Assembly: GCF_000519325.1 (NCBI RefSeq)
Contig: NZ_KI912613.1
Coordinates: 4,658,469-4,722,468 of the forward strand
DNA from: Patulibacter minatonensis DSM 18081
GTDB lineage: Bacteria > Actinomycetota > Thermoleophilia > Solirubrobacterales > Solirubrobacteraceae
Direction of reading: 5' to 3'
DNA: 64,000 bases
The position numbers and the translations under genes were made by a program. The notes below the pieces were generated by a model, which ran no database searches, had not been told where the DNA came from, and saw only the letters and a program-made list of their open reading frames with translations. Below, one piece after another: positions 41,617 to 43,415 of the stretch (its first letter is position 1; each line of letters starts with the position of its first letter).

Positions 41617-41642
41617 GAGCGCCGCGGCTCGCCGCGGCGCTC
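41617..41642. terminator. Bidirectional terminator, methyltransferase/TetR
   Basis: Perfect 11-bp stem (GAGCGCCGCGG / CCGCGGCGCTC) with a CTCG loop between convergent stops. Confidence 0.75.
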
Positions 41643-42252
41643 ACCCCGGGTCGGTGGCCGACCCGTCGAGCGACCGCCAGACCCGGGCGGGCAGGACCCG
41701 CGCCGAGTCGCCGGGGTCCACGCCCGGCTGGCCGCCCAGCCACCGCCGGACGGCCTCCGCCGGCGGCCCGATCAGCAGCAACTCGAGCACCGGTGCGGGC
41801 AGGTCGACGATCGCCCCGGACGCGACGTGCGGCGCGAGCCAGCCGAGCATCGCCTCCACGCGGGGAGCCTTGTCGCGGGCCAGGTCCTCGGCGTGCGTCC
41901 GGAGGAACGTCGCGTCCGCGGCGGTGTGGACGAACCGCGCCTCGGCGCGATGCCGCCCCGCGAACTCGAGGTACCGCCGGACCAGGGCCTCGATCCCCGC
42001 GCGGGCACCGTCGGCACCCCGCAGCGCGTCGACGAGCGCGTCGAGGAGCTCCCCCATGCAGCGGCGGTAGAGCGCGGCGGACAGCCCGTCGAAGCTGCCG
42101 AAGTGGTGGTAGAGGCTCCCGAGGCTCACGCCCGACTCGGCCCGCACCGCCTGGACGGTGAAGCCGGGGCGGCCCTCGCGGTCGTGGACGGCGAGGGCGG
42201 CGTCGAGCAGCTGCTCCGCCGTCCGCAGGCCGCGGGCCTGCTTCGGCGTCAC
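41641..42252 (-). CDS. TetR/AcrR-family transcriptional regulator
   Basis: A 203-aa repressor. The N-terminal helix-turn-helix is typical (RTAEQLLDAALAVHDREG, FTVQAVRAESGVSLGSLYHHFGSFDGLSAALYRR). The ligand-binding part has the TetR_C-type helices (ARFVHTAADATFLRTHAEDLARDKAPR). GTG 42252 overlaps the stop of a 29-codon upstream frame (GTGA). A perfect 18-bp palindrome beside the promoter is a candidate auto-operator. The neighbouring GSH-hydroquinone reductase and DHA2 exporter are plausible additional targets, but the palindrome near them has a different sequence. Confidence 0.87.
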   Translation of the reverse strand: MTPKQARGLRTAEQLLDAALAVHDREGRPGFTVQAVRAESGVSLGSLYHHFGSFDGLSAALYRRCMGELLDALVDALRGADGARAGIEALVRRYLEFAGRHRAEARFVHTAADATFLRTHAEDLARDKAPRVEAMLGWLAPHVASGAIVDLPAPVLELLLIGPPAEAVRRWLGGQPGVDPGDSARVLPARVWRSLDGSATDPG

Positions 42253-42338
42253 GGTGCGTCCCCGCGGCCGCCCGGGCCGCACCCGGCGACCCGGCCCACG
42301 GGCCGCGCCGCCCCGGATCCCGTCGTGGTCGTCGCCAT
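42249..42338 (-). CDS. Short upstream frame (29 aa) coupled to the TetR gene
   Basis: ATG at 42338, 6 nt after TACGGT, ends at a TGA that overlaps the TetR GTG. The peptide starts MATTTTGSGAARPVG and has no recognisable domain. If the mRNA starts at this ATG, translation of the short frame would deliver ribosomes to the TetR start. It may instead be an untranslated leader. Confidence 0.4.
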   Translation of the reverse strand: MATTTTGSGAARPVGRVAGCGPGGRGDAP

Positions 42339-42344
42339 CGTGGG

Positions 42345-42369
42345 ACCGTAACACCGTTCTAGAACGGTG
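42345..42369 (-). promoter_or_regulatory. TetR gene promoter (-10 TACGGT) and 18-bp palindromic operator
   Basis: CACCGTTCT-AGAACGGTG (42352-42369) is a perfect palindrome filling the spacer upstream of -10 TACGGT (42345-42350, minus strand). A dimer bound there would block RNA polymerase, as expected for TetR auto-repression. Confidence 0.7.
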
Positions 42370-43390: not shown

Positions 43391-43415
43391 TCGTTGCGCG
43401 CGCAACGAGAACATA
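43391..43415 (-). promoter_or_regulatory. Promoter and palindromic operator of the hydroquinone reductase gene
   Basis: TCGTTGCGC-GCGCAACGA (43391-43408) is a perfect 18-bp palindrome immediately downstream of a -10-like TATGTT (43415-43410, minus strand), i.e. over the start of transcription. The TTGC-GCAA core resembles operators of MarR-family regulators. Confidence 0.6.

Follow-up and report, generated by a model that had tools for sequence, protein, structure and literature searches.

How does a regulator gene begin when a second, much shorter reading frame opens just past its apparent promoter and closes on its start codon? This question is raised by a TetR-family gene on the minus strand of the window, by which we mean the whole 64,000-nucleotide stretch of Patulibacter minatonensis DSM 18081 DNA analysed here. 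Along that strand, the stop codon of a GST-like gene is followed 14 bp later by a perfect 18-bp palindrome (42369-42352), one base, TACGGT (42350-42345), the bases CCCACG and an ATG (42338-42336); after this ATG come 28 more sense codons and a TGA (42251-42249) that shares two bases with the TetR GTG (42252-42250). The original prediction, which proposed auto-repression together with translational coupling through a leaderless micro-ORF, had the palindrome, the -10 element, the spacing of six, the ATG, the 29-codon frame and the GTGA overlap exact to the base. The features of the locus are as follows.

42352..42369, no strand: operator, perfect 18-bp palindrome CACCGTTCTAGAACGGTG; a predicted TetR site, from sequence and recurrence in orthologs
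42345..42350, minus strand: -10 element TACGGT, one base past the operator; from sequence
42249..42338, minus strand: leaderless-looking micro-ORF of 29 codons, MATTTTGSGAARPVGRVAGCGPGGRGDAP, stop included; same architecture in 21 ortholog loci
42249..42252, minus strand: GTGA stop/start overlap of micro-ORF and TetR; same TGA-at-+1 overlap in 9 SDR-TetR ortholog loci
41641..42252, minus strand: TetR-family regulator, 203 aa, GTG start; Pfam TetR_N 1.7e-08
41637..42369, no strand: segment without same-genus counterpart (operator, promoter, micro-ORF and TetR), probably acquired
41617..41642, no strand: hairpin whose 12-bp arms pair perfectly, between the stops of the convergent methyltransferase and TetR genes; a possible terminator

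The regulator is recognizable by its helix-turn-helix (PF00440, 1.7e-08, 34.5 bits against a 24-bit cut-off). A comparison with named NCBIfam TetR equivalogs (ScbR, BetI, RutR and others) gave nine matching models, the best at 39 bits against a cut-off of 150, and among solved structures the closest in sequence is 2gen_A (6.4e-17), which bears only the name ‘probable transcriptional regulator’. The GTG start at 42252 matches the N-termini of many orthologs, and an upstream in-frame GTG (MRPGRPRGRT) is disfavoured as the start because so many begin at the equivalent of GTG 42252. The same comparison bears on a different reading of the locus, in which ATG 42338 starts a longer TetR, a one-base indel (sequencing error or mutation) interrupts its frame in the G-rich leader, and there is no separate micro-ORF. 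The leader does contain G runs, the TetR frame stays open ahead of the GTG and would encode a plausible basic N-terminal tail (RPGRPRGRT-VTPKQ), and a Rhodococcus ortholog (L027) has an upstream ATG whose frame continues into TetR (MSTTTTERSDVTQPRG). However, leader frames are expected to be open anyway (90% of dinucleotide shuffles stay open for 30 codons), and, in addition to the shared start position, the same TGA-at-+1 overlap is present in nine SDR-TetR relatives. An indel of this kind is thus an unlikely account of the locus.

At the 75% GC of the window, long palindromes are not rare, with eight perfect ones of at least 16 bp in the 64 kb, and a 29-codon frame is uninformative: an ATG frame of at least 29 codons ending at the TGA appears in 5.9% of 5000 dinucleotide shuffles of the leader, which alone is weak evidence. 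The weight of the argument therefore lies in the comparison with relatives. For the palindrome, this comparison points to the adjacent regulator. Within the window, CCGTTCTAGAACGG with at most two mismatches is found once against 0.13 expected, and in the 5.52-Mb genome the operator core TTCTAGAA is found in exactly two places (25 for a reversed control word), one before the micro-ORF and the other before an orphan SDR gene 206 kb away. Among orthologous loci (the best 80 of at least 90), 23 of 80 have the core in the 200 nt before TetR, against an expectation of 0.37 from the frequency of TTCTAGAA elsewhere in those loci; three sites at -950 to -700 were set aside from that frequency, since the SDR promoter can lie there. 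In addition, the helix-turn-helix stretch SGVSLGSLYHHFGSFDGL is identical in the window TetR and in one ortholog (L039). With its core recurring ahead of orthologous tetR genes and confined to two places in the genome, the palindrome is strongly supported as a predicted TetR auto-operator, as the original prediction proposed.

The two operator sites, one upstream of TetR and one upstream of its cognate SDR, suggest a small regulon consisting of these two genes. We see no evidence of a broad regulon, because sites within two mismatches of CCGTTCTAGAACGG (26 per strand) match the count for the reversed control (27). The sole site with one mismatch (L109) falls within the 3′-terminal part of a different gene. 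The position of the palindrome 3′ of the GST-like gene, so close to its stop codon, might instead suggest a terminator for that gene or the site of another regulator, unrelated to TetR; we regard this as very improbable, since the core is tied to this TetR family and its one other occurrence in the genome precedes an SDR gene of the type linked to this TetR. The core is also missing from the GST loci of seven same-genus genomes (3-4 kb per locus), and a terminator-like site was looked for and none was found. Operator control of the adjacent GST-like gene is also not favoured, given that the genus keeps this gene without the operator core; no relatives of it were found in the ortholog loci (best 80 of at least 90). 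A second perfect 18-bp palindrome, TCGTTGCGCGCGCAACGA (43391-43408), lies just ahead of the GST-like gene on the minus strand. An element of the GTTGC-N4-GCAAC type occupies the corresponding position in four other loci (L099, L100, L101 and L102), more weakly in L103 and L104, and not in L105; this palindrome is likely the conserved operator of another regulator.

Upstream of TACGGT there is no convincing -35 element, and a sigma-70 consensus scan gave no match. What marks this promoter is its geometry. We took as leaderless-looking, by a criterion set in this analysis, any ATG or GTG that lies 6-7 nt after TANNNT, and TACGGT-CCCACG-ATG has this spacing. The window contains ten instances of TANNNT-N6/7-RTG. 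Besides the one at ATG 42338 there are nine, and each opens a coding-like ORF (eight distinct ORFs in all). TACGGT itself also precedes the start of the genome’s orphan SDR and of two coding-like window ORFs (25087 and 45410). In 400 kb of the same genome, sampled in even steps, the distance from TANNNT to the start codon peaks at 6, 7 and 8 nt (45, 31 and 23 cases, of which 34, 22 and 18 are coding-like), so that spacings of 6 or 7 account for 76 cases, 56 of them coding-like; every other spacing from 2 to 20 nt has 3-8 cases. This geometry, in the window and in the 400 kb, supports the predicted leaderless start at ATG 42338. It also makes TANNNT-N6/7-RTG a signature by which probable leaderless genes of this genome can be picked out from their sequence.

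The frame that opens at this ATG has the dimensions of a small coupled ORF (fewer than 50 codons, with a TGA overlapping a downstream RTG), at 29 codons and with GTGA as the overlap. Its GC content by codon position, 0.76/0.86/0.93, is unlike that of the genes tested here. Taken together, the elements of the arrangement (TANNNT, 6 or 7 nt, ATG or GTG, and an off-frame ORF ending near the TetR start) appear in 9 of 5000 shuffles.

What this frame may stand in for is suggested by the orthologs. In 25 of 80 actinobacterial ortholog loci (the best 80 of at least 90), an SDR gene lies directly upstream of TetR. In 21 of the 25 the SDR stop codon and the TetR start overlap, the stop being TAA or TAG at +8 in 12 and TGA at +1 in 9. 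The remaining four are a one-base overlap (L050), stops 8 and 55 nt before the TetR start (L026 and L025, respectively) and a locus in which the matched SDR frame stops early (L086). SDR promoters were compared in 23 of the 25 loci, with start codons picked by eye among in-frame candidates through N-terminal comparison; the start lies 6 or 7 nt past TANNNT in 22 of the 23, and TCTAGA lies no more than 70 nt upstream in 18. These operons, from Micromonospora, Herbidospora, Actinomadura and relatives (L018, L090, L060 and others), have in common with the window an orthologous TetR, a related operator, a leaderless-looking first cistron and a stop/start overlap. They differ in the first cistron, which is a dehydrogenase of 259-291 aa (four were translated whole) where the window has 29 codons. 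The TGA at +1 in the window is the overlap of nine of these operons.

In this genome, SDR and TetR do not form one operon with a stop/start overlap; the SDR gene is the orphan 206 kb off, and the 29-codon frame is found instead. This orphan SDR is 58% identical to a Micromonospora SDR that is operonic with this TetR, and its promoter, TTCTAGAA ... TACGGT-CCCGCC-ATG, is close to the window’s TTCTAGAA ... TACGGT-CCCACG-ATG. Similarity between the micro-ORF peptide and the SDR was examined as a sign of ancestry and is not significant. Against the SDR start peptide, the micro-ORF has a residue-shuffle p of 0.08, and 43 of 2124 open stretches in the window score equally; eight of the longer Streptomyces micro-ORF peptides described below give p values of 0.06-0.70 against SDR. 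An ungapped comparison of the micro-ORF with this genome’s SDR matches 17 of 48 nt, and end-to-end alignment of the window promoter with the Micromonospora SDR promoter gives a z of only 1.6. Because peptide and promoter similarity are weak, the case for descent from an SDR gene is built on the location of the frame, the core motifs, the tree and a parallel seen in Streptomyces.

Among orthologs of the Streptomyces clade, 21 loci without a directly upstream SDR have in its place a leaderless-looking frame, 9-34 codons long, whose stop falls just past the TetR start codon. The 21 starts lie at eight distances but in one frame (-22 in ten loci, -94 in four, -70 in two, and -19, -58, -64, -67 and -88 in one each), which is the SDR frame of the TAA-at-+8 operons; the TGA at +1 in the window is in another frame. 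The TetR codon that supplies the micro-ORF stop ends in T in 21 of 21 (19 CCT and 2 GCT), and CCT accounts for 5 of 170 Pro codons in the remainder of those TetR genes. In nearer subfamily rows without a micro-ORF, 9 of 41 still have a stop at that position. Counting all off-frame leaderless-looking frames that end at the TetR start gives 22, the window among them, in 117 loci that lack an upstream SDR; dinucleotide shuffles predict 0.18. The codon, frame and shuffle counts ignore phylogeny, and as related loci are not independent, they describe the strength of the pattern and not an exact probability. They derive from 158 mapped loci, reduced to 142 by dropping 16 whose leader is identical to that of another row. 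Two loci with TTG at the start position (L057 and L069) were left out of the micro-ORF count, as was a micro-ORF-like frame whose -10 element is not TANNNT (L040). The TetR gene at L040, from Streptomyces, has an in-frame TAG after eight codons, with a 24-codon upstream frame ending at +8; it is probably a pseudogene and was excluded from the tree.

The micro-ORF is one of several ways in which genes of this family start. TetR itself is the leaderless-looking gene in another 28 loci, and a 46-row Streptomyces subfamily has no micro-ORF by our criterion and four leaderless rows, so the micro-ORF is dispensable in the family. Four micro-ORF loci (L032, L043, L048 and L121) have an SDR gene convergent downstream with its own TTCTAGAA and leaderless-looking start; they parallel the separated pair of the present genome, where the SDR is much farther off. 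A whole-genome search at E<=1e-50 found SDR in 3 of 12 micro-ORF genomes (L048, L121 and L117, with the L117 SDR about 2.2 kb past TetR) and in none of nine genomes with a leaderless TetR.

These patterns also bear on the possibility that operator and promoter are real but that TetR is translated from an ordinary leader through a weak Shine-Dalgarno site, leaving the 29-codon frame incidental. GGGGA upstream of the TetR GTG could be such a site, the micro-ORF sequence is not conserved and its codon profile is not gene-like, and many orthologs lack the micro-ORF and seemingly use leaders. However, nine other sites in the window have the same -10-to-ATG geometry, and all nine lead into coding-like ORFs. 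In orthologs, the architecture is found far more often than in shuffles, and codon choice in 21 of them is consistent with selection to terminate at the start of TetR. We therefore think an incidental frame improbable, about as much so as the indel or marginally less. The recurrent overlap in orthologs argues instead for stop/start coupling of the micro-ORF to TetR.

The genomic setting suggests how this arrangement reached Patulibacter. In three same-genus genomes that carry both flanking genes (L100, L102 and L103), the methyltransferase and GST-like genes are convergent and adjoining, separated by a short gap that lacks TetR. Alignment of the flanks to L100 stops at 41636 and 42370, leaving some 730-750 bp extra in the window. 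No close TetR match was found in the same-genus genomes searched; eight of 60 relatives have a match with E<=1e-15, at 29-37% identity (up to 50 candidates scored per genome), and in a class-wide sample of 399 genomes only the window’s own genome matches at E<=1e-28 (7 candidates scored per genome). Orthologs 44-60% identical were found in genome contigs of Actinomycetota (best 80 of at least 90 loci). The TetR segment is thus probably a recent acquisition. The orphan SDR likewise has no match at E<=1e-50 in the 60 relatives (up to 41 candidates scored per genome), so SDR and TetR co-occur among the genomes sampled at these thresholds. In a TetR tree rooted at its midpoint, the window TetR, whose own branch is long (0.88), and all 25 SDR-TetR loci fall on one side of a 100/99 branch (34 rows); within these, the window TetR belongs to a group of 33 rows at 100/97. 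The micro-ORF label requires eight changes on the tree, at least four of them forced by well-supported branches.

From the operator recurrence, the promoter and start geometry, the overlap series and the two genomic operator sites, all read directly in the sequence, we propose that this locus combines a TetR auto-operator with a leaderless, stop/start-coupled micro-ORF that holds the place of an SDR cistron; we consider this probable. The TetR protein would bind the palindrome at 42352-42369 and repress its own promoter, and would repress the SDR promoter in trans. On derepression, transcription would begin at or beside the A of ATG 42338, giving a leaderless mRNA on which ribosomes load at the 5′ ATG without a Shine-Dalgarno sequence, translate the 29 codons, terminate at the TGA of the GTGA overlap and start again at the TetR GTG. 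In this scheme, the micro-ORF would be a ribosome-loading device whose peptide need not matter, replacing the SDR cistron of the related actinobacterial operons. The SDR-TetR pair was probably acquired and is now split in this lineage, with the SDR gene 206 kb off under its own TTCTAGAA and TACGGT promoter; TetR would have retained promoter, start and overlapping stop around a 29-codon stub. The micro-ORF is thus perhaps what was left by the splitting of an SDR-TetR operon.

A more general idea, which we offer tentatively and hold at slightly below an even chance, is that such micro-ORFs can be gene stubs: a translationally coupled operon would have lost its first cistron, or seen it move elsewhere, while selection retained the leaderless start and overlapping stop of that cistron as a minimal ribosome-loading frame. 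The TetR family would show the stages of this reduction, from a full SDR gene through a stub of 9-34 codons to a leaderless start fused to TetR, and the window would be a separate instance in a different lineage. If true, this offers a concrete and testable account of how leaderless coupled small ORFs arise. Their peptides can be unconserved, and some of these frames may be remnants of a lost first cistron, retained because the next gene needs translation from upstream.

Leaderless coupled small ORFs as an architecture are already known from mycobacteria; what is new here is the series from operon to stub. In the parts of Shell et al. 2015 (PMC4633059) considered here, an ATG or GTG at the 5′ end is reported as necessary and sufficient for leaderless initiation in mycobacteria, and ‘coupled’ RTGA small ORFs are over-represented, in some cases with only the linkage conserved. 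The likeness is close: a 5′-end ATG or GTG begins a short frame, the TGA of which merges with the next start codon as RTGA, and in one example the linkage is retained and the peptide is not. In contrast to those cases, the present one is known from its sequence, in a non-mycobacterial genome, and its downstream gene is a TetR with its own operator; where it has the short frame, orthologs carry a complete SDR gene. A second likeness is uPPE2-PPE2 of M. tuberculosis, for which the sections of PMC11260477 used here describe an out-of-frame uORF with a 4-nt stop/start overlap (AUGA), termination-reinitiation at that overlap, and PPE2 expression that depends on uORF translation. That system differs in having riboswitch control and a Shine-Dalgarno site, whereas the micro-ORF here looks leaderless and operator-controlled. 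Among the open-licence papers listed on leaderless, coupled or upstream ORFs, none describes this TetR-SDR family or a gene-to-stub reduction in its title or the opening lines of its abstract, and TTCTAGAA as a word returned nothing relevant from that literature.

Operator placement varies among the orthologs. In a distant Streptomyces subfamily, TTCTAGAA can be doubled (L161, L170, L177, L178 and L180), with the copies 13 bp apart, which suggests two adjacent TetR dimers. In eight further loci (L147, L150, L153, L156, L159, L160, L169 and L171), it lies just 18-20 nt ahead of the TetR ATG, close enough that the start region itself may be the target of repression.

The original prediction regarded the arrangement as an unusual way to start a regulator gene. 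This is half right, given the mycobacterial cases documented in PMC4633059 and further examples in the same genome. Of the short non-coding-like frames in the 400 kb, 306 of the 4505 that lack a TANNNT end in an RTGA start of a coding-like ORF. With TANNNT 6-7 nt ahead of the frame, the proportion is 5 of 9 (Fisher 1.5e-4 against the frames that lack it, computed on all five, two of which were later judged doubtful); with TANNNT 8 nt ahead it is 0 of 3, and for the remaining spacings 3 of 21. The doubtful two are L189:13832, where an SDR gene probably starts further upstream, and L191:12512, which has a TTG start. The three accepted, two of which precede TetR genes, are leaderless-looking micro-ORFs of 14 codons (L189:6169-6836) and 7 codons (L205:7454-8100), each with its TGA overlapping the ATG of a TetR gene, and one of 8 codons (L195:13703-14889) whose TGA overlaps the ATG of a saccharopine-dehydrogenase-like gene.
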